Assembly (NCBI GenBank): GCA_020861185.1
Contig: JAJBSV010000006.1
Coordinates: forward strand, 1 to 38,508
Reading direction: 5' to 3'
DNA length: 38,508 nt
DNA from: Ruminococcus sp.
GTDB taxonomy: Bacteria > Bacillota > Clostridia > Oscillospirales > Ruminococcaceae
Made by a program: the position numbers and the translations under genes. The notes under the pieces are model-generated. The model did no database searches, was not told the origin of the DNA, and worked only from the letters and a program-made list of their open reading frames with translations. Positions 21,107-31,572 of this stretch are shown here, in pieces. Each line of letters opens with the position of its first letter. The stretch's first letter is position 1.

Positions 21107-22375
21107 TTATTCCGCCGCCAAAATTTCTTTCAGGAATTCATACGCTGTCTCGCCCATTTCGGCGTAGCCGGCGTCGTTCGGGTGGAGATAGTCGTTCCAG
21201 ACGGAGACGTAGTCGTCAAGAAGCTTCGAGGTGTTGTCGGGGTCTTGGAGTGCAAGGTCAAAGTCGATATAGCCGTCGAACTTCGACTTGCTCGAGCGGA
21301 TATATTCGTTCAGGGCAACCCTCGTCTCGTCGTGGAGCTCACTATAGTAAGAGCTTCCCTCAATCGGAGTTAAAGTTCCCGCATAAATCAGGATATCGTT
21401 CTCGTGGCAGAGCTCAATCAGCTCTTCATAGGCGTCGATAATGCTTTCCGAAAGATCTTCCGACTCATATCCGATATCGTTGATGCCGATGAGGAGGATG
21501 CAATATCTCTCACCTGTCGTATCAGCCAAAACGTCGATAACGTCACGCTGGAATCTGTCGACAAGTGCGTCGCCCAAACCGCCGAAGACCGCGTTGCCGC
21601 CGATGCCCTTGTTGACAACCGCAACGTTTCCGACGCTGTCGTCAGCCGCTAAGAGCTCCATAAGCGTGTCGGGATAGCGGCAGTAACCGTTCTGGGTCGA
21701 GCTTGCACCGTCGGTGATGGAGTCGCCGATGCAGACAACCGTCTTGGTGCCCGATTCAGCCCAGGTCTCGACGCTCTCGATATAGTATGTCGAAGTCATA
21801 ACGGATGCACCAGTGAGGGTCTCGTCCGAAACATGGTCGCCCTCGACAATCCATGTCGAGCATCTTGCCGCAGTGTGGCAGGTGATTGTTCCGCCGACAT
21901 AGGCGCCGAACTTGATGGTGATTGCGAGGCAGTCGAGCGCTTCGAAGCTGAAATCGACTTCATCCGAAACTATCTTCTCCCCGCCCGAAAGGTCGACGCT
22001 CTCGGAACCGCCGTTAAAGGTGATGACGGTGTCGGTCGAGGTGTCGATGGTCGAAGATGAGCTGTCGACGAGATGAGCGATATGAACAGATTCGATATTG
22101 AGCGGAATGTCGCCGTACTCGTTCGAAAGGGTGATTCTTATCTTGTCGCCGCCGATGGAAACTCTGACCTGCTGGCGGGCTGTGTTCTGCTTGAGCGAGG
22201 GGCTTGTCGGTGTTTCGTCAACGCTCGCCGTGAGCATTGCGGTTCCCCATGTGGTGAACCAACCGTCAGCTTCGACGATGTCGGCGCCGACTTCCTTGCC
22301 GCAGGACGTTGCCCCGATAAGAAGCATCGCCGCTAAGATAAGGCTTATGAGCCTTTTTGCTATGGATTTGAACAT
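21107..22375 (-). CDS. SGNH/GDSL hydrolase lipoprotein 1
   Basis: A 422-residue secreted esterase-like lipoprotein. The lipobox IGATSC puts the lipid-modified Cys at 25. Residues about 35-205 form an N-terminal beta-sandwich, followed by the SGNH hydrolase domain: Ser219 in GDSITDG, Gly260-Asn261 in GIGGN, Asn299 in GIND, and the catalytic dyad Asp395-x-x-His398 (DYLHPND). All four conserved blocks are intact. It overlaps the upstream gene signals: AAAGGAG sits on the stop codon of lipoprotein 2, so the pair is co-translated. Family members remove acetyl or acyl groups from polysaccharides; the substrate here is unknown. Confidence 0.9.
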   Translation of the reverse strand: MFKSIAKRLISLILAAMLLIGATSCGKEVGADIVEADGWFTTWGTAMLTASVDETPTSPSLKQNTARQQVRVSIGGDKIRITLSNEYGDIPLNIESVHIAHLVDSSSSTIDTSTDTVITFNGGSESVDLSGGEKIVSDEVDFSFEALDCLAITIKFGAYVGGTITCHTAARCSTWIVEGDHVSDETLTGASVMTSTYYIESVETWAESGTKTVVCIGDSITDGASSTQNGYCRYPDTLMELLAADDSVGNVAVVNKGIGGNAVFGGLGDALVDRFQRDVIDVLADTTGERYCILLIGINDIGYESEDLSESIIDAYEELIELCHENDILIYAGTLTPIEGSSYYSELHDETRVALNEYIRSSKSKFDGYIDFDLALQDPDNTSKLLDDYVSVWNDYLHPNDAGYAEMGETAYEFLKEILAAE

Positions 22376-22388
22376 TTATAAAACTCCT

Positions 22389-23693
22389 TTACGAAATAAA
22401 GTCCTTGAGATAATTATAAACTGTGGTTCCGACATAGGCGTAGCCGTCGTGGTTGAAGTGGAGATAGTCGTTCCAGACGGAGACATAGCTTGAATCCATC
22501 TTTGAGGAATCTTCTTCCGAAGCAACCGCCGAGGACAAATCAATATAACCGTCGAATGCGGAATCCTCAGACATGATATACTCGTTCACCTCGAGACGAA
22601 TCTGCTCGTGGAGCTCGGAATAATATGTATTGCCGTTGAAGGGAGTGATGGTGCAACCGATGACGGTAATCCCCGCCTCGTGGCACTGCTCGACAAGGCT
22701 CTCATAGCCTGCGATAATATCCTCCGAAATATCCGAGGTCGCCGCTCCGATGTCGTTTACGCCCATGAACACGATGCAATACTTGACGCCTTCAATGTCG
22801 AGGATATCTCTTTCAAGTCTGCCCATGCCGGTAGAGTTGTCGGTGGTGCCGAGGAACATCGTTCCTCCGACGCCCATGTTGATGACGGAATAGGTGTTAA
22901 GTTCACTGTCAGCCTGCAAAAGCTCCATGAGTGTATCGGTATATCTTGCGAATGAGTTGTCCGTGATGCTTGCGCCGTCGGTGAGGGAGTCGCCAAGGCA
23001 TACGATTGCCGAGCAGTCCGGGTCAGCCATCACATCCATAACCGCAAGGAAGTACCACATCGAATAGGTCGAGGCTTCCGACCAGTCATTATCTGTTGCG
23101 TGAGAGCCGGTGATAATCCAGTTGGTACAACGGGACGCTCTGTGAAGGGTGATTGTCGAGGGCATGGAACTTATCTCCATAGAGACGGCGATGTCGTCAA
23201 GAGCGGAATAGCTGAACTCAATCGAATCCGTTACAATAGTCCCGCCTGCCGGCACTGTGATGGTCGTACTGCCCTCATAGGTGACAGCGACCGAGCTGTC
23301 GGTGTCGATTTCGTAGCTTGACGGGTCAAGGAGCATGGCAATTTCCATGCTGTCGATCACGAGATCAGTGCTTCCATACTCGTTCGAAAGCGTGAACCGA
23401 AGCTCGCTTCCCGATACAGAGGGTCTTATCTGCTGACGGATGGTGATTGTCTCGCCGCTTGTGGCTTCGCTCGGGATTGTGTCCGAAGACCAGACGGTCT
23501 GCATCGAGGTTCCCCAAGCCGCAAGCCAAGCCTCGGCTTCTGTTGTTTCTTCATTGATTTCTTCTGTTTCTGTCATATCTTCCTCTTCCTTTGTCACTTC
23601 GGTGTCGCTTTCGGTGCTCCCGCATGCTGTCAGCATTGTAAACGCCAGCACAAGAGCAATCAAACGGCACAGACGCCTGAATTTCTTAGTCAT
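22389..23693 (-). CDS. SGNH/GDSL hydrolase lipoprotein 2
   Basis: A 434-residue paralogue of the neighbours. The lipobox LTAC gives Cys24, followed by an acidic Glu/Thr-rich linker (about 26-55) that the others lack. The SGNH motifs are Ser236 (GDSLTDG), GVGGT in block II where the usual Asn is replaced by Thr278, Asn313 (GVND) and Asp409-x-x-His412 (DYLHFNHDG). The block II change weakens the oxyanion hole and may alter activity. ATG 23693 is preferred to a TTG at 23714 that overlaps the ribosome site AAAGGA. It is transcribed from its own promoter together with lipoprotein 1. Confidence 0.88.
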   Translation of the reverse strand: MTKKFRRLCRLIALVLAFTMLTACGSTESDTEVTKEEEDMTETEEINEETTEAEAWLAAWGTSMQTVWSSDTIPSEATSGETITIRQQIRPSVSGSELRFTLSNEYGSTDLVIDSMEIAMLLDPSSYEIDTDSSVAVTYEGSTTITVPAGGTIVTDSIEFSYSALDDIAVSMEISSMPSTITLHRASRCTNWIITGSHATDNDWSEASTYSMWYFLAVMDVMADPDCSAIVCLGDSLTDGASITDNSFARYTDTLMELLQADSELNTYSVINMGVGGTMFLGTTDNSTGMGRLERDILDIEGVKYCIVFMGVNDIGAATSDISEDIIAGYESLVEQCHEAGITVIGCTITPFNGNTYYSELHEQIRLEVNEYIMSEDSAFDGYIDLSSAVASEEDSSKMDSSYVSVWNDYLHFNHDGYAYVGTTVYNYLKDFIS

Positions 23694-23730
23694 AATATAA
23701 ACCGTTCCTTTCAAACGTTATGTAAAATAT

Positions 23731-23759
23731 ATTGTAGCACAAAAGCAGGGAAATGTAAA
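23731..23759 (-). promoter_or_regulatory. Promoter of SGNH lipoproteins 2 and 1
   Basis: Minus strand TTTACA (23754-23759), 17-nt spacer, TACAAT (23731-23736). Confidence 0.7.
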
Positions 23760-23774
23760 TATAGAATTAATAGC

Positions 23775-23800
23775 AAAACACCACACATTTCTGTGCGGTG
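23775..23800 (-). terminator. Terminator of SGNH lipoprotein 3
   Basis: CACCACACA (23779-23787) pairs with TGTGCGGTG (23792-23800), with TTTT on the minus strand. It separates lipoprotein 3 from the downstream pair. Confidence 0.7.
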
Positions 23801-23831
23801 CTTGCTCTTCAAATATCAGCCTCTGCTGTAA

Positions 23832-25079
23832 TCATGTTAGCGACCAGAAACTCAGCAGTGAGTTATAGGCTTCCTCCGCCATTCTCTCATATCCCGCATC
23901 TCCCGGGTGGAGATAGTCGGCGGTGGAGCCGTTGTATTCGTCCGCCATCTGGGCGGAATCCTCCTCACTCGCAATAGCGCCGCCGAAGTCGATCACTCCG
24001 TCAAAGCCGCTGTCTTCAGACATGAGATATTCATTCACGGCGGTTCTTATCTTTTCATGCAATTCCGAATAGTAGAAGTTGCCCTTGACAGGGGTCAATG
24101 TTCCGGCATAGACCTTGAGTCCTGCCGCGTGGCACTGGGAGATAATCTCCTTGTAGCACTCTATCATCTCGTCGGAAATGTCCGCCTGTGCGGTTCCGAC
24201 ATCGTTTATACCTATTAAAAGTATAACATACCTGACACCCGAAACCTTAAGAACGTCCCTCGTCAGGCGGTTCACAGCGGAATCGGAGCTCTCGCCGGTT
24301 ATCATGTTGCCCGAGATGCCCATATTGACGACGGAAATATTCTCAGTGAGGGGATTTGAATTGAGCATATATGCGAGCTGGTCGCACCAGGACTGATACT
24401 GGTTATAGGTCGAGCATGCGCCGTCGGTTATCGAGTCGCCGAGGCATACGACAGCCTTGGTTCCCGCCTCGCTCCAGACATCGAGCCTTGTTATATAGTA
24501 CCAACTGCTCATGACCTTGACCGCCGAAAAGCTTTCGTCCGAGACGCAGTTGCCCTCGGTAACCCATGTCGAGCGGTTGGAGAGCTTGTGGCAGGTGACG
24601 ACCCCGCCGGTATAATCGCCGAGCTTGATTGAAATCGCTATTTCTTCGAGGGCTTCAACATCGAAGCTGACGGCATCGCAGGTGACAGTCTCCCCTGCCT
24701 CGACGGTGACGCTTTCGGAGCCATTGAACGTCAGAACCGTATCGGTTGAGGTATCAATAGTATCGCTTCCCGAAGACTGAAGCTTGGCGATATGCACGCT
24801 TTCAAAGACGACGGGAATCGTGCCGTATTCATTCGAGAGAGTTATTGTGATGGTGTCGCCGGAAATGCTCGGGCGGATGACCTCACGGACGGTGTTGCCC
24901 TTGAGCCCCGGGTTCGAGGGGATAACGTCGACATCCGAAGCTTCGGGAGCCGCCGCCCACGCCGTTACCCAGCCGTCTTCATCGGGAAGGACAACCTCGG
25001 TTTCACCGCAAGCGGAAAACGTCGCCAGTACGACCACAAGACACACAATTACCGACAAAAATCTTCTTAGTTTACGCAC
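23832..25079 (-). CDS. SGNH/GDSL hydrolase lipoprotein 3
   Basis: A 415-residue lipoprotein, the third tandem paralogue. It starts at GTG 25079 with GGGAGG 7-8 nt before it. The lipobox FSAC gives Cys24; the beta-sandwich domain spans about 35-200. The hydrolase motifs are Ser216 (GDSITDG), Asn258 in GISGN, Asn292 (GIND) and Asp388-x-x-His391 (DYLHPGD). All are intact. It has its own promoter and terminator, so it can be regulated apart from lipoproteins 1 and 2. Three similar enzymes suggest related but different acylated glycans as substrates, for example dietary or host polysaccharides. Confidence 0.9.
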   Translation of the reverse strand: MRKLRRFLSVIVCLVVVLATFSACGETEVVLPDEDGWVTAWAAAPEASDVDVIPSNPGLKGNTVREVIRPSISGDTITITLSNEYGTIPVVFESVHIAKLQSSGSDTIDTSTDTVLTFNGSESVTVEAGETVTCDAVSFDVEALEEIAISIKLGDYTGGVVTCHKLSNRSTWVTEGNCVSDESFSAVKVMSSWYYITRLDVWSEAGTKAVVCLGDSITDGACSTYNQYQSWCDQLAYMLNSNPLTENISVVNMGISGNMITGESSDSAVNRLTRDVLKVSGVRYVILLIGINDVGTAQADISDEMIECYKEIISQCHAAGLKVYAGTLTPVKGNFYYSELHEKIRTAVNEYLMSEDSGFDGVIDFGGAIASEEDSAQMADEYNGSTADYLHPGDAGYERMAEEAYNSLLSFWSLT

Positions 25080-26587: not shown

Positions 26588-27154
26588 CTAAATCACAGTA
26601 CCCTTCCCCTCAATATATCCCCTGACGCCGCCGGACACCAGATTCTGCATCAGGTCGCTGATTTCCTCCGGGCTGATGTCCTTATTGTTTTCATGCCAAC
26701 GCTCCAATAGTCCAAACATGGCGGAGTTGACAAATGCGACGAGATAGTCGAAGTTCTCTGAGTCCGGGCGGACGGGGATGTACTGCGAAGCGAGAGGAAT
26801 CAGCTCGGTTCTGACCCTCGACAGGAAGCTTGAGTCGCCGTTAGGACCCAAGAGGATATAGATTTCTTCGTTCATAGCGGAAAAGACCATCCGGAAAAAT
26901 TCCATCGGCGGTTTCTCATCCGATATGGATTTCTGAGCCACTTCCTTGACCTCACCGATAAGCTTGTCCTCGACATAGGACAATAAATCGTCGGTGTCCA
27001 AAAAGTACTCATAGAAGGTACTGCGGTTGTAGCCGGCACGCCGCGTCAGCTCGCTCACCGCAATCTTTGAAACCGGCTTTTCCTTTGCCAGAGCCCAAAA
27101 GGAGTCAACAAACTTTTGCCTTGTTCTATCTGTGATTTCCGATTGTTTTTTCAT
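26588..27154 (-). CDS. TetR-family transcriptional repressor
   Basis: A 188-residue regulator. The N-terminal helix-turn-helix (about 10-58, including ISELTRRAGYNRSTFYEYF-type sequence with SKIAVSELTRRAGYNRSTFY) is typical of TetR. The C-terminal ligand domain (about 70-180) is not assignable. It is divergent from the YcgN-like/nitroreductase genes. The 23-bp palindrome 27237-27259 lies exactly between its own -35 and -10 boxes, so it should repress itself. A nearly identical palindrome stands at the ABC operon promoter (31550-31572), making that operon a probable second target. Confidence 0.9.
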   Translation of the reverse strand: MKKQSEITDRTRQKFVDSFWALAKEKPVSKIAVSELTRRAGYNRSTFYEYFLDTDDLLSYVEDKLIGEVKEVAQKSISDEKPPMEFFRMVFSAMNEEIYILLGPNGDSSFLSRVRTELIPLASQYIPVRPDSENFDYLVAFVNSAMFGLLERWHENNKDISPEEISDLMQNLVSGGVRGYIEGKGTVI

Positions 27155-27203: not shown

Positions 27204-27265
27204 TTGATAATACCTCCAAGCTGAGTATAATATATATTATACAACAGATTGTTGGATAATGTCAA
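27204..27265. promoter_or_regulatory. Divergent promoters and TetR operator O1
   Basis: Plus strand: TTGATA (27204-27209), 16 nt, TATAAT (27226-27231). Minus strand (tetR): TTGACA (27260-27265), 18 nt, TATAAT (27236-27241). The operator arms TTATACAACA (27237-27246) and TGTTGGATAA (27250-27259), 9 of 10 complementary, sit inside the tetR promoter and just downstream of the plus-strand -10. Confidence 0.8.
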
Positions 27266-27307: not shown

Positions 27308-27643
27308 ATGAGTGACTCGGCTGGCGGGTATGCCATAAGCATATTCAAAGAATGGCTCAAGTGGCGAAAGGACTGGGATTCCCTGTGCACCCGTTGCGGA
27401 AAATGCTGTTACACCCGCTCAATCGGCTCCGACGGCAAGGTAAGGATTCATTATGACAACCCCTGCGAATATCTTGACACCCAGACGAATCTGTGCCGTG
27501 TGTATGAGGAACGATTCAAGAAGTGCAACCACTGCGGAAAACTGACTTTGTACACGGCGCTGTTTAATACCACACTGCCGGAGGATTGTCCATATGTGAC
27601 AACCTTCCGGGTGTGGATACACAAGCAGGATGAAGAAACCTGA
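27308..27643 (+). CDS. YkgJ/YcgN-type cysteine-cluster protein
   Basis: A 111-residue protein with the pattern CTRCGKCC (27-34), then PCEYLDTQTNLCRVYEERF and LPEDCPYV. This is the order seen in UPF0260/YkgJ proteins, where conserved Cys residues are thought to bind zinc or an iron-sulfur cluster. The function of the family is not settled. GAGAGGAG precedes the ATG; an ATG 4 nt upstream is closed at once by a stop. It is the first gene from the TetR-controlled promoter, directly ahead of two nitroreductases, which fits a redox role. Confidence 0.75.
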   Translation: MSDSAGGYAISIFKEWLKWRKDWDSLCTRCGKCCYTRSIGSDGKVRIHYDNPCEYLDTQTNLCRVYEERFKKCNHCGKLTLYTALFNTTLPEDCPYVTTFRVWIHKQDEET

Positions 27644-27668
27644 TATATATTTTTAAGGAGGAATTTTT

Positions 27669-28199
27669 ATGCAAACATCGGAAGCTATCGCAAAAAGAAA
27701 GTCAACAAGGGACTTTGACCCTACAAAGGCTGTTCCTGACGAGGTTATCGACGAAATCGTCAAGGCAGGTTGTCAGGCTCCGGTCGGCGGAGGCAAGAGA
27801 GACTCTCTTCACCTGACAGTATGCAAGAGCCGTGAGATTCTCGAAGAAATCAATCAGTCCACCGCCGCGGCTATGAAAATGCCGGCGAGAGACTTCTTCT
27901 ATGGAGCACCGGTCGTTGTCTTCGTTTCCGCTTCAGAGGAGCAGATGGCACCGGGAATTGAATATGCCAACTCCGCTTGCGTCATCGAGAACATGTTGAT
28001 CGCCGCAACCGACGCGGGACTTGGAAATATCTATCTCTGGGGACCTGTTCAGGGTCTTGCAAGAAACAAGGACATGTGTGCAAAGATGGGCATTCCGGAA
28101 TGCTTCAGACCTGTTTCCGCCGCCGCAATCGGCTATAGCCTGAGCGGTGAAGCAGAGCCGAGAGACCTGACCGTCTCACTCAGCACCAACTACATCTGA
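27669..28199 (+). CDS. Nitroreductase-family FMN oxidoreductase 1
   Basis: A 176-residue protein of the nitroreductase fold: EAIAKRKSTRDFDPTKAVPD at the start (the FMN phosphate-binding Arg-Ser/Thr-Arg segment), ANSACVIENMLIAATDAGLG (dimer/FMN helix) and PVSAAAIGYS near the C-terminus. Known members reduce nitro groups, quinones or flavins with NAD(P)H. AAGGAGG lies 7 nt before the ATG; the gap to the cysteine-cluster gene is 25 bp, so they share one transcript. The substrate cannot be assigned. Confidence 0.88.
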   Translation: MQTSEAIAKRKSTRDFDPTKAVPDEVIDEIVKAGCQAPVGGGKRDSLHLTVCKSREILEEINQSTAAAMKMPARDFFYGAPVVVFVSASEEQMAPGIEYANSACVIENMLIAATDAGLGNIYLWGPVQGLARNKDMCAKMGIPECFRPVSAAAIGYSLSGEAEPRDLTVSLSTNYI

Positions 28200-28238
28200 T
28201 CTGAACTATTAAAAATACAAAAACAAGGAGGCACTACT

Positions 28239-28931
28239 ATGGCAACTTATGAAGTCACACAGGAGGCAATGAAGAAGGCGATGAGCGAGCGGCACACCGT
28301 CCGCAAGTATAAGGCTGATAAGCTCCCCTCGGATATCGTCGAAAAGCTCAACGAAAGAATCGAGGAGAACAACAAAAAATACGCCCTGAATATCCAGCTT
28401 GTCCTGAACAACAAGGAGGCAATGCCGGGAATTCTCAGCGCCACAATGTCGAAGAACGTCCTGAACTATGTGATTTTAGCCGGTCCCGACAAGGCATCGA
28501 CCGACGAGGTGCTCGGATATGCCAGTGCCGACCTTATGCTGTATGCCCAGACACTTGGTCTGAACACCTGGTGGATAGGCGGAATGTACAGCAAGAAGAA
28601 CGCAAGAAAGAATTCCGACGCTCCGGAAAATGCGAAAATTATTGGAGTTGTAGCCGTCGGCTACGGAATGGAGCAGGGCGTTCCGCACAAGTCAAAGCCC
28701 ACAAGCGAAGTTTCCTCCTATGAAGGCGAAGCCCCCGACTGGTTCAAGGCGGGAGTTGAAGCTTCACTTCTGGCTCCGACGGGCATGAACCGTCAGGAGT
28801 TCACAATCAAAGGCACCGGCAATGAAGTTTCGATGACCGTTCCCGAGGGCTCGTTTTCAAAAGCAGACCTCGGAATCAGCAAGTATTTCTTCGAGCTCGG
28901 TGCGGGAAAGGAAAACTTCACCTGGAAGTAA
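28239..28931 (+). CDS. Nitroreductase-like protein 2
   Basis: A 230-residue protein, longer than its neighbour, resembling the putative nitroreductase group in which two half-domains are joined. Visible are MSERHTVRKYKADKLPSD at the N-terminus, ASADLMLYAQTLGLNTWWIGGMY in the middle, IIGVVAVGYG, and a second half with ASLLAPTGMNRQEFTI and SKADLGISKYFFELGAG. CAAGGAGG precedes the ATG; it is 39 bp after nitroreductase 1. It probably binds FMN. A weak hairpin follows (28974-29012) before the sirtuin genes. Confidence 0.82.
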   Translation: MATYEVTQEAMKKAMSERHTVRKYKADKLPSDIVEKLNERIEENNKKYALNIQLVLNNKEAMPGILSATMSKNVLNYVILAGPDKASTDEVLGYASADLMLYAQTLGLNTWWIGGMYSKKNARKNSDAPENAKIIGVVAVGYGMEQGVPHKSKPTSEVSSYEGEAPDWFKAGVEASLLAPTGMNRQEFTIKGTGNEVSMTVPEGSFSKADLGISKYFFELGAGKENFTWK

Positions 28932-28973
28932 TATTGACAGCAAGTACCTCCACAAAGTCACATATAGATAAAG

Positions 28974-29012
28974 CACCACCCACCGAAGAAGCAACGATTT
29001 GGTGGGTCGGTG
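28974..29012 (+). terminator. Weak hairpin between nitroreductase 2 and the sirtuin operon
   Basis: CACC-A-CCCACC (28974-28984) can pair with GGTGGG-TC-GGTG (29001-29012), but the following TTTATAACT is a poor T run. It may reduce rather than stop transcription. No convincing promoter is seen between it and the first sirtuin. Confidence 0.45.
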
Positions 29013-29049
29013 TTTATAACTGCATTTATAAAAATACGGAGATGAATTT

Positions 29050-29799
29050 ATGAGATACGAATCAAGTCAGCTAAGAGAATATATGGAACAAAGCGGCAAA
29101 ACAGTCGCGGTAACGGGTGCCGGCATTTCTTATTTATATGGAATGAGACGCCTGAAGCAGAGCGTTGGGCTCATGAATTCAAGGCAGGTGCTCTCCCCTT
29201 CGTTCGTAAGAAGCAACCCGGATGATTTCTATAAAATAGTCAAGACATCTTTCCTGGATGCCACATTCGAGAAGGGTCCGAGCGAGGTTCACAAACAGCT
29301 TGCGATCCTCGAAAAGCACGGCTTGCTTTATGGAATAGTCACCCAGAACATGGACTGTCTTCACACAGTAGCCGGCTCGAAGAACGTCGTCGAGTTTCAG
29401 GGAAGCTTCGGGGACAACATCTGCGTGGACTGCGGCACAAGATACCTTAATTATAAAATCTGGAATCACGGGCACACGCCCACCTGCGAAAAGTGCGGCT
29501 CGCCGCTGATGCCGACAACCTTCTGCCGGGAAAACAAGATATCCGAGCAGGTTTCCAAGGAAAGCATGAAGAAAGCGCAGGAGATGATTTCCGAGGCGGA
29601 TCTGGTCATTATCATCGGCACCACGGGATTCAGGAGCGACGAGTATCTCAAGAAGATGAGAAAAGATACAAAGCTCGTCCAGATAAATCCTTCGGAAACT
29701 CCGCTTGACAGCGTTGCCGACTGGAATATCCACGCTGATGCCGCAGAGGTTCTTAAAGAAGTAATGAACGGATGGGAGAAGTGCGAAGATGTTCTCTAA
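29050..29799 (+). CDS. Sirtuin 1, catalytic His replaced by Gln (class M-like)
   Basis: A 249-residue Sir2-family protein. NAD-binding GAGIS (23-27), TQNMDCLH with Asn100 and Asp102, zinc Cys125, Cys128, Cys146 and Cys149, GTTG (190-193) and QINPSE are all present. The general-base His of deacylase sirtuins (normally in LHG) is Gln117 (EFQGS). From memory, the same substitution is known in class M sirtuins, which ADP-ribosylate proteins instead of deacylating them. The GIPxFR segment after GAGIS is also replaced (YLYGMRRLK). It overlaps the next gene by 11 bp. Probable role: mono-ADP-ribosyltransferase; target unknown. Confidence 0.85.
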   Translation: MRYESSQLREYMEQSGKTVAVTGAGISYLYGMRRLKQSVGLMNSRQVLSPSFVRSNPDDFYKIVKTSFLDATFEKGPSEVHKQLAILEKHGLLYGIVTQNMDCLHTVAGSKNVVEFQGSFGDNICVDCGTRYLNYKIWNHGHTPTCEKCGSPLMPTTFCRENKISEQVSKESMKKAQEMISEADLVIIIGTTGFRSDEYLKKMRKDTKLVQINPSETPLDSVADWNIHADAAEVLKEVMNGWEKCEDVL

Positions 29800-30499
29800 A
29801 TCGAGCTTCGACGACAAGATACAGAAATTTGCGGAATATGTTGATAACTGCAGCGGTATAGTCGCAATAACGGGTGCGGGAATCTCGATTTCCGGCGGAG
29901 GAGTGACCTACAGTCAGCTCTCCCGCAATCTTCGCCCCGGAGGTTTTGAAAGCGAATCGTTTCTTAAGTCCTATGTCAAAACCATGCACCACTACAAGCC
30001 AAGCCTGAGTCATTATGCCTTGGCGGATCTTGAACGTGAAGGCAAGCTCATAGGGGTCATCACGACGAACGAGGACTGCATGCACACCATAGCAGGCTCA
30101 CAGAACGTTGCCGAGATTCAGGGAAGCTTCCAGATTAATCGCTGCAAGGATTGCGGCAAGCACTTTGACGGCTATGAGATATGGAACAAGGATGAACTCC
30201 CCAAGTGCGATTCCTGCGGCGGGACGATTCTCCCGTGGGAGCTCTACAGCCACATCGGACTGTGGGACGAGGGCGTCAAGGACGCGCAGAACTGGATTTC
30301 AAAAGCCGACCTGATAATAGTAATCGGCACCAACGGCTACTATGGCGGCGTCTATTGGAACCACAGACGGAGCGATGCCACCATAGTCCAGATTAACCCG
30401 GGTCACACAGCCTTCGACAGGGTTGCTGACCTGAACATCCGCGAAGAATGCGACGACGTATTCAGAGAGCTTAAGGAAAGGCGGAGTAAAAATGCCTGA
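29789..30499 (+). CDS. Sirtuin 2, catalytic His replaced by Gln, divergent active site
   Basis: A 236-residue Sir2-family protein. GAGIS (29-33) and zinc Cys119, Cys122, Cys140 and Cys143 are kept. The catalytic loop reads TTNEDCMH (Gln of TQN changed, Asn94 and Asp96 kept), and the catalytic His is Gln111 (EIQGS). After the conserved VIGTNG the NAD-contact segment is unusual (YYGGVYWNHRR), and INPGHTAFD replaces the normal IN-x-E loop. It is a clear paralogue of sirtuin 1 but more altered, so it may differ in target or act as a partner subunit. It starts inside sirtuin 1, and its own stop overlaps the hydrolase gene start by 8 bp. Confidence 0.83.
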   Translation: MFSKSSFDDKIQKFAEYVDNCSGIVAITGAGISISGGGVTYSQLSRNLRPGGFESESFLKSYVKTMHHYKPSLSHYALADLEREGKLIGVITTNEDCMHTIAGSQNVAEIQGSFQINRCKDCGKHFDGYEIWNKDELPKCDSCGGTILPWELYSHIGLWDEGVKDAQNWISKADLIIVIGTNGYYGGVYWNHRRSDATIVQINPGHTAFDRVADLNIREECDDVFRELKERRSKNA

Positions 30500-31472
30500 T
30501 GAAGAAAAGATGAAAGAGCTCGCCGAGAAGATGCGCGAAGCGGAAAACAAGGGTCTGACAGAGGAACAAATCAAGGCTCGTGATGCCGAAAGAGAAAAGC
30601 GCAGGCTTGATAATATAAGGATTCTTGAGGATACCCTCGGCATTCTCGAAAAGGGCTCTTATGAAAAGGACGGCAAGGAGATAAGTCTAAGATTCTCTGC
30701 CGCTGAGATGGAAGAAGCAAAAGTCTATCTTTCCGAAGATATCGAAGCTACTGAAAAGTCGGCACCGGTCACAGAAACTCACGAAGAACGCGATATAAGT
30801 CGGATTTTCGGCTGTGAAAATGAAGATGCTCTTGTTCTTGCAAAGAAAAGATATCTTGAGATGAAGGAAGCAGGGGATTTCTCGCCAAAGGTATTGGTTT
30901 TGAATCTCGCTTCGGCTACGGAGCCCGGTGGACGCACCCGTAAGGGCGCAAGCGCGCAGGAGGAAGACCTCTGCCGGCGTTCGTCGCTCCTTCTTTCCCT
31001 CGAAAGCGAGAACGCAAAGAAGTATTACGACTATAACAACGCCCGCAAGACCCACATGGGCTCAGACGGGATTGTTATGTCGGAAAATGTCGAGGTTATA
31101 AAAAATCACTCTTCCGAAACGCTCACAGAGCCGTTCCCGATATCGGTTATGACCTGTGCCGCACCGATGATTCGCATGGGACTCGAGGGGATGACGCAGG
31201 AAGAGTATGAAAGCATGCTCGAAACCCGTATTCGGGGAATGCTGACGGTTGCCGCAACGGAAAAATATCGCCATTTAATCTTAGGCGCATTCGGTTGCGG
31301 AATATACGGAAACGACGCAAGCCTTGTGTCAAGGCTGTTTTATGAGGCGATTATGAGCTTCTCCTATGCCGGAAAGACGGCGGAAGCACTGTTTGACTCG
31401 ATAGACTTTGCCGTCCTCTGCAAGCCTGAAAAGGATTATAATTACAAAGAATTTTGCAAGTATTTTTCGTAA
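30492..31472 (+). CDS. TIGR02452-type PARG-like macrodomain hydrolase
   Basis: A 326-residue protein. The N-terminal third (1-100) is charged and helical; the catalytic domain carries VLVLNLASATEPGGRTRKG, then the PARG signature GASAQEEDLCRRSSL with Glu157 and Glu158. TCAAPMIR follows at 221-228 and GAFGCGIYGND at 265-275. These match the microbial poly(ADP-ribose) glycohydrolase family (TIGR02452/DUF2263), which removes ADP-ribose from proteins. The usual GGG before the signature is GGR here. The overlap with sirtuin 2 implies one translational unit, so it is the likely eraser of marks made by the two sirtuins. Confidence 0.88.
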   Translation: MPDEEKMKELAEKMREAENKGLTEEQIKARDAEREKRRLDNIRILEDTLGILEKGSYEKDGKEISLRFSAAEMEEAKVYLSEDIEATEKSAPVTETHEERDISRIFGCENEDALVLAKKRYLEMKEAGDFSPKVLVLNLASATEPGGRTRKGASAQEEDLCRRSSLLLSLESENAKKYYDYNNARKTHMGSDGIVMSENVEVIKNHSSETLTEPFPISVMTCAAPMIRMGLEGMTQEEYESMLETRIRGMLTVAATEKYRHLILGAFGCGIYGNDASLVSRLFYEAIMSFSYAGKTAEALFDSIDFAVLCKPEKDYNYKEFCKYFS

Positions 31473-31516: not shown

Positions 31517-31572
31517 TTGACACCCGATTTCGACTGAGTATAATATCAATCATACAACAGGTTGTTGGATAA
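31517..31572 (+). promoter_or_regulatory. Promoter and TetR operator O2 for the ABC efflux operon
   Basis: TTGACA (31517-31522), 16 nt, TATAAT (31539-31544). Directly downstream are the arms TCATACAACA (31550-31559) and TGTTGGATAA (31563-31572). Spacing and arms match O1 at 27204-27259, and the 30 bp upstream of both -35 boxes is also similar (ATCCGACA...GGAAA...TTGGGG). Confidence 0.8.

Follow-up and report, generated by a model that had tools for sequence, protein, structure and literature searches.

The operon at positions 29,050 to 31,472 of a 38,508-nucleotide stretch of Ruminococcus sp. DNA (contig JAJBSV010000006.1; this whole stretch is hereafter the window) encodes two sirtuins, SirA and SirB, and a PARG-type hydrolase, and this set looks like a second ADP-ribose tagging switch, probably evolved separately from that of the class M sirtuins. 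We infer the transferase and hydrolase activities, the target and the biological role of the module from the encoded proteins, and consider it somewhat better than an even bet that it is a reversible mono-ADP-ribosylation switch in which the sirtuins write, the hydrolase erases and a co-encoded flavoprotein is the likeliest target. The main clue, absent from the first-pass annotation of this DNA, is that glutamine replaces the catalytic histidine in both sirtuins. The core genes are as follows:

29050..29799, + strand: SirA, a sirtuin of 249 aa (Pfam SIR2, 4.8e-24) with Gln117 at the position of the catalytic His; predicted mono-ADP-ribosyltransferase.
29789..30499, + strand: SirB, a SirA paralogue of 236 aa (SIR2, 9.4e-20) with Gln111 at the position of the catalytic His and TTN for TQN.
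30492..31472, + strand: PARG-type ADP-ribosyl hydrolase of 326 aa (TIGR02452/PF10021) with the variant loop GGRTRKGASAQEE; predicted eraser.

The annotation had recognized two Sir2 paralogues and a TIGR02452-type hydrolase in three overlapping genes. The Pfam and NCBIfam scores confirm the families, and the open reading frame (ORF) calls confirm the overlaps of 11 bp between SirA and SirB and 8 bp between SirB and PARG, all on the + strand. The two sirtuins share 37% identity.

The ELHGS motif of the deacylases reads VVEFQGSF in SirA and VAEIQGSF in SirB. Gln occupies the catalytic position in every aligned row (81/81 SirA, 97/97 SirB and 4/4 SirC), in an alignment that left out trimmed rows shorter than 190 aa, duplicates and loci L064-L076; in a separate count it is present in 186/186 operon sirtuin segments covering the site, six further fragments not reaching it. 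His is found in all canonical sirtuins compared, namely 20 distinct sequences (21 rows, one gene appearing twice) and a further 11/11. The Asn and Asp of the nicotinamide adenine dinucleotide (NAD) pocket are invariant in the aligned rows (Asn100 in SirA, Asn94 in SirB), and the zinc cysteines are at least 98% conserved over the 81 SirA and 97 SirB rows. Rack et al. 2015 (PMC4518038) describe the same replacement of HG by QG in sirtuins that ADP-ribosylate without appreciable deacylase activity; reverting Gln to His abolished activity, and the catalytic-site Asn corresponds to Asn118 in SpySirTM. The His-to-Gln change in SirA and SirB argues against a deacylase function and for ADP-ribosyl transfer.

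The predicted eraser is also modified. The window's PARG matches Pfam PARG_cat_microb (8.4e-27) and NCBIfam TIGR02452 (4e-48; 164.3 bits for a cut-off of 50), and the catalytic QEE is present in 61/61 full-length operon PARGs (those of at least 280 aa with an E-value of 1e-40 or better, five shorter pieces being omitted). In all 61, however, another residue stands in third place of the GGG signature (Q in 38, R in 11, H in 11 and A in 1), whereas GGG is intact in 14/14 other PARGs compared, including the nearest one; they come from a set of 17 such loci, from which those with partial hits (three) were omitted. The window's PARG carries an N-terminal stretch of about 42 residues ahead of the family profile, which starts at residue 44. 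The GG..QEE region starts at a median residue of 156 in operon PARGs versus 81-109 in 13/14 others and 265 in the fourteenth; N-termini were set at the first possible start codon, so that these lengths are upper bounds. Zn-Macros, the erasers of class M operons, are characterized in PMC11490716 as macrodomains whose Gly-rich catalytic loop has been replaced, and the changed loops of the two eraser types would represent a notable parallel. No SirA/SirB-like match was found in the 17 other PARG loci (1.5 kb fetched on each side), by a test that does not detect class M sirtuins (0/30 class M loci). The nearest of these other PARGs (48% identical to the window's) belongs to a fusion gene, PARG-ADP_ribosyl_GH-NADAR, which combines three ADP-ribose-processing domains (L080:7593-10127, genome G078) and is preceded by genes for a NUDIX protein and a rubrerythrin.

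The arrangement recurs, in related genomes and in further Clostridia MAGs, and so is not due to chance. Among 119 related genomes searched, SirA occurs in 10/31 of the same genus and in a single genome from a different genus, and SirB and PARG adjoin it in 10/10 of the same-genus SirA genomes. The eleventh SirA genome (G057) has two loci, one with SirA-SirB and a broken PARG, the other (L074) with a flavodoxin, one sirtuin and PARG; the broken PARG lies in pieces beside SirA/SirB (L073:7589-8624), and the intact one is at L074, elsewhere in the genome. When genome_contigs was scanned with SirA/SirB as query, 323 tblastn relatives came up; the best 80, from 75 isolates, were used, and the remaining 243 may include canonical sirtuins. 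SirA is present in the 80 loci by selection, given the query. Its identity ranges from 64 to 98%, the records are titled Clostridia of various families (one only Bacillota), and nine loci belong to the window's genus (L082-L090). Once loci cut by contig ends are excluded (27 downstream, 25 upstream), 53/80 are evaluable downstream of SirA and 55/80 upstream. Downstream, SirB is present in 50, PARG in 46, both in 45, and at least two SirB-type copies in 21. Two of the eight loci scored as lacking the set have PARG upstream instead (L157; L091, where SirB is also upstream), and the smallest form consists of one sirtuin and PARG (L107, L119, and L074 with its flavodoxin). The proposal of a distinct ADP-ribosylation module thus stands as regards gene content, with a conserved set of two (in some loci three) sirtuins and PARG unlike class M operons; the activity is predicted. 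Two of the 80 loci bear the name of a koala that appears in a published study (PMC5697889). A guess that the gene set originated in Kyphosus fish was not supported.

Upstream of the sirtuins lie three genes for redox-related proteins:

27308..27643, + strand: CysC, a YcgN-like cysteine-cluster (CxxCxxCC) protein (NCBIfam 4.1e-17, Pfam CxxCxxCC 0.0014, both under the curated cut-offs).
27669..28199, + strand: NR1, a nitroreductase-family flavoprotein (Pfam 9.3e-19); best candidate target or partner.
28239..28931, + strand: NR2, a TM1586-type nitroreductase (Pfam 1.6e-59).

In the 55 loci evaluable upstream, NR1 is found in 36, NR2 in 19, a flavodoxin in nine, any of these three in 43, and CysC in 21. 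The earlier suggestion that a redox neighbour is the target is strengthened by this linkage to flavin redox proteins, with NR1 the better candidate because CysC (21/55) and NR2 (19/55), the alternatives it named, are less constant than NR1 (36/55). NR1 is also the more conserved partner, its median identity to the window in loci outside the genus being 78% (49 loci) versus 68 and 66% for the sirtuins (71 loci). Moreover, NR1 orthologues of at least 74% identity occur in 8/11 SirA genomes and in 0/108 others, where the best hit is 39% (Fisher 2e-10, in related and hence non-independent genomes). Nitroreductase-family neighbours were also found in 9/30 Zn-Macro/class M loci, 2/31 canonical sirtuin loci and 0/17 other PARG loci; the comparison of class M with canonical loci (p 0.02) was picked after the nine had been seen. 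The nitroreductases beside class M loci (L175-L204) are possible class M redox partners outside the extended operon described below. At L050 (genome G105), a nitroreductase directly adjoins a canonical His-type sirtuin.

In the mechanism that we favour, SirA and SirB would bind NAD and set nicotinamide free; with Gln where deacylases have the catalytic His, they would pass the ADP-ribose to a protein instead of deacylating one, and the co-encoded PARG-type hydrolase would take the tag off. The likeliest target would be NR1, with NR2 or the flavodoxin as alternatives, and the tag would switch the flavin redox enzyme on or off, under the control of TetR here and of Rrf2 elsewhere. The two different sirtuins may recognize separate sites or work together.

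Several observations weigh against this mechanism or narrow its reach. Arg192 is required for class M activity, according to PMC4518038; its equivalent, in an uncertain alignment, may be the Arg that stands at position 160 in 55/81 SirA, and in SirB the candidate residues are Ser154 and His155. The canonical GIPDFR loop is replaced by GMRRLK in SirA and GGGVTY in SirB, so that NAD handling by these proteins may differ from the canonical one. On the eraser side, PARG is described in PMC7050489 as unable to cleave the terminal protein-ribose bond; the proposed role therefore requires that the changed loop, or some other feature, alter this. The association with nitroreductases is neither exclusive nor complete: 2/31 canonical sirtuin loci likewise adjoin one, NR1 is missing upstream in 19/55 evaluable loci, none of NR1, NR2 and flavodoxin is present in 12/55, and 3/11 SirA genomes lack NR1, which therefore is not the sole target everywhere. 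Finally, when 398 genomes spread evenly over the phylum were sampled, the family turned up in the window's genome alone (SirB 387 bits, next match 162; the 11 next hits fetched all have His), and outside this setting the gene set is rare. The proposed survey of co-occurrence thus had a divided outcome: the genes are adjacent where SirA occurs (45/53), but they were found only in the window's genome among the 398.

The strongest competitor, which we regard as possible but clearly the less probable account, keeps the transferase activity and moves the target: ADP-ribose would go to some other cellular protein, to nucleic acid or to a foreign compound, and the nitroreductases, with the nearby exporters, would be co-regulated detoxification genes. 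This would fit the adjoining TetR, the ATP-binding cassette (ABC) exporters that lie nearby in the window's genus, and the loci without NR1. However, the ABC genes come with a promoter-like site of their own, at 31517, the two exporter-type ABC genes are found near SirA in only about a quarter of loci (MsbA1 18/80, MsbA2 20/80), and the restriction of NR1 orthologues to SirA genomes is tighter than shared regulation requires.

Another explanation, compatible with the proposed switch, would make SirA and SirB true, if divergent, class M sirtuins, with one shared origin of the His-to-Gln change, in which Zn-Macro has been swapped for a PARG-type eraser. The common QG substitution speaks for this, as does the TTN that SirB shares with class M. 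In trees of 73 and 82 rows, mostly sampled from 226 prepared (the second with 11 more canonical rows and without two long canonical ones), SirA, SirB and SirC form one group (97/100 and 80/100) and class M stands apart (100/100). Both best trees place the canonical His sirtuins between the Gln groups and require two His/Gln changes. Profile comparisons likewise favour the canonical sirtuins (SirA-canonical 283, SirB-canonical 253, versus SirA-class M 73 and SirB-class M 74; class M-canonical 62), and the insertions and the YTQGDYG and NLRxDD motifs of class M are not found in SirA/SirB. Nevertheless, the approximately unbiased test does not reject a single QG clade, and hence one origin (p 0.338 in the 73-row tree, 0.368 in the 82-row tree), and in 10% and 22% of 200 bootstrap trees (first and second tree, respectively) the canonical rows form one side of a branch. 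The branch of class M is very long, and bootstrap values in the second tree had yet to stabilize. Since SirA and SirB are much closer to canonical His sirtuins than to class M, two origins are probably the better explanation, though unproven, and we hold the shared-origin scenario to be unlikely. We would put at about even chances the fuller proposal that the window holds a second class of ADP-ribosylating sirtuins. In this proposal, the His-to-Gln change known from class M would have taken place a second time, among canonical deacylases; the resulting sirtuins would have gained a PARG of their own with a remodelled loop, would have become linked to flavin oxidoreductases as class M did, and would modify a flavoprotein directly, with no lipoyl carrier in between. 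Both systems would operate side by side in some bacteria.

A non-catalytic role is more improbable still. The loss of the catalytic His and the altered GIPDFR loop would fit Gln sirtuins that act as sensors of NAD or ADP-ribose, or as scaffolds, but the NAD-pocket Asn and Asp are invariant, the zinc cysteines are at least 98% conserved, and the operon encodes a hydrolase of a family suited to the expected product. It is very unlikely that the genes form a toxin-antitoxin or anti-phage system that depletes NAD and uses the hydrolase as antidote: Sir2 proteins do act as NADases in several defence systems (according to the abstracts of that literature), but a defence or phage origin found no support in a PADLOC scan of six proteins (sole hit SirA to AbiI, at a marginal 0.0071), in viral contigs (no SirA relatives confirmed) or in plasmids (SirB hits all below 60% identity, none covering 80% of SirB), and the conserved neighbours are redox genes instead.

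The window's genome also carries a class M pair. On another contig, a Zn-Macro above its curated cut-off (NF003163; G000:C2:32722-33495) is directly followed by a SirTM (TTNVDHCFQKAG...YTQGDYG...NLRCDD), the pair lying within G000:C2:32722-34333 (L188); a SirTM hit adjoins 29/30 of the fetched Zn-Macro loci. An Rrf2-like regulator precedes the pair, as does a reductase-like protein, presumably NmrA-like. The annotation had noted the lack of a lipoyl carrier or ligase in the window, and this extends to the whole genome: the sole GcvH-type hit is weak (23.4 bits with its neighbours, cut-off 22.2) and reads as what we take to be a biotin carrier (EAMKMEN), and the search for a lipoate ligase, made with TIGR00545 among the ligase families, gave no match. 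A lipoyl-carrier model for the window's module is made unlikely by these results, and GcvH-L lipoylation is an unlikely basis for the genome's class M pair as well, in the absence of both a convincing GcvH and a TIGR00545 match. No conserved small carrier protein was found in the listed clusters of neighbouring ORFs either. The annotation had also presented class M operons as pairing one sirtuin with a macrodomain, GcvH-L and LplA; such an arrangement exists, but the operon descriptions in PMC11490716 limit the GcvH-L/LplA carrier to an 'extended' class M operon, simple SirTM/Zn-Macro pairs occurring besides.

The sirtuin and PARG genes are likely part of a transcription unit CysC-NR1-NR2-SirA-SirB-PARG (27308-31472), taken to end at PARG because the downstream ABC genes have a promoter-like site of their own. 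Its putative control region comprises the following:

26588..27154, - strand: divergent TetR-family regulator (Pfam TetR_C_8, 1.3e-10), in the equivalent place in ten same-genus loci.
27204..27231, + strand: operon promoter-like site TTGATA-16-TATAAT, a consensus match.
27225..27242, no strand: perfect 18-bp palindrome GTATAATATATATTATAC between TetR and CysC, which overlaps the -10 box of each of the two divergent promoter-like sites; probable TetR operator.
27265-27236, - strand: opposing TetR promoter-like site, a consensus match.

An exact copy of the palindrome is present in 9/10 same-genus loci (the exception being L067), and, with up to two mismatches allowed, it occurs once in the window versus 0.00 times expected in shuffles. 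Seven promoter-like sites were found in the region for 5.4 expected, a number not above chance and no evidence alone; the site at 27204..27231 is supported by its position and by the conserved palindrome. The divergent TetR probably represses the operon through this palindrome. Elsewhere, a divergent upstream regulator, either Rrf2 (named by Pfam) or TetR, was found in 35/55 evaluable loci.

The sirtuin block may be mobile, since its flanks vary among same-genus genomes. At L086 (10701-16747), the set of two ABC ATPases and a permease that follows the operon occurs as two tandem copies, possibly through an assembly fault. Roughly 2-7 kb beyond SirA, some loci (among them L097, L114, L121, L125, L129 and L138) have genes for an adenylation (AMP-binding) enzyme (16 loci), a GNAT protein (16) and an esterase (18); these genes are not general, and they look like a segment of a pathway for a small peptide or a siderophore. 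The window also contains a tandem trio of GDSL lipase/acylhydrolase genes on the - strand (21107-25079) and, close to the contig end, a serine recombinase of the resolvase type (235-1791); a single RNA-family scan found nothing but a tRNA.

No published description of a sirtuin-PARG operon was found among the titles and abstract openings of the open-licence literature searched. Older comparative-genomics work, for example that of de Souza and Aravind in 2012, may mention sirtuin-PARG neighbourhoods. PMC11490716 presents class M as unique among sirtuins in having transferase activity alone, and GcvH-L as their only known target. If our interpretation is correct, a second lineage, which combines the residue change of class M with another eraser and the same link to flavoproteins, would reveal how a deacylase becomes a transferase; the system would be carrier-free, with its target probably encoded next door. 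The TIGR02452 PARGs, whose role in bacteria is little known, would gain a defined physiological partner.

The module can be set against four known systems. The NADAR and other ADP-ribosyl hydrolase systems are linked to it by the L080 fusion, in which a relative of its PARG is joined to ADP_ribosyl_GH and NADAR domains; they differ in that blastp (1e-5) with the ORFs called at L080 found no SirA/SirB match, and Pfam no NADAR in the 20 window proteins scanned. Like the bacterial-type PARGs (TIGR02452/PF10021, DUF2263; DrPARG, TcPARG), the operon PARG scores above the curated cut-off and keeps QEE, but it lacks the third Gly of GGG, has a longer N-terminus and adjoins sirtuins. The canonical bacterial sirtuin deacylases of the Sir2Tm type are the nearest to SirA and SirB by sequence, sharing the zinc cysteines and the TQN.D motif (TTN.D in SirB), but they retain the catalytic His and the GIPDFR loop. 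The class M SirTM/Zn-Macro system resembles the module in its QG for HG, its adjacent ADP-ribose hydrolase, its overlapping genes and the flavin oxidoreductases close by, including the nitroreductase-family neighbours of 9/30 class M loci, and SirB shares its TTN. In contrast to class M, the window's sirtuins match the canonical profile, lack the class M insertions and the motifs YTQGDYG and NLRxDD, and occur two or three to an operon; their eraser is of the PARG type rather than a Zn-Macro, the flavoproteins are different, and TetR or Rrf2 adjoins. Whereas the extended class M operon, as outlined in PMC4518038, combines GcvH-L, LplA2, OYE and LLM, the window's module has no convincing lipoyl carrier or ligase and associates its sirtuins and PARG with flavoproteins encoded in the same operon.

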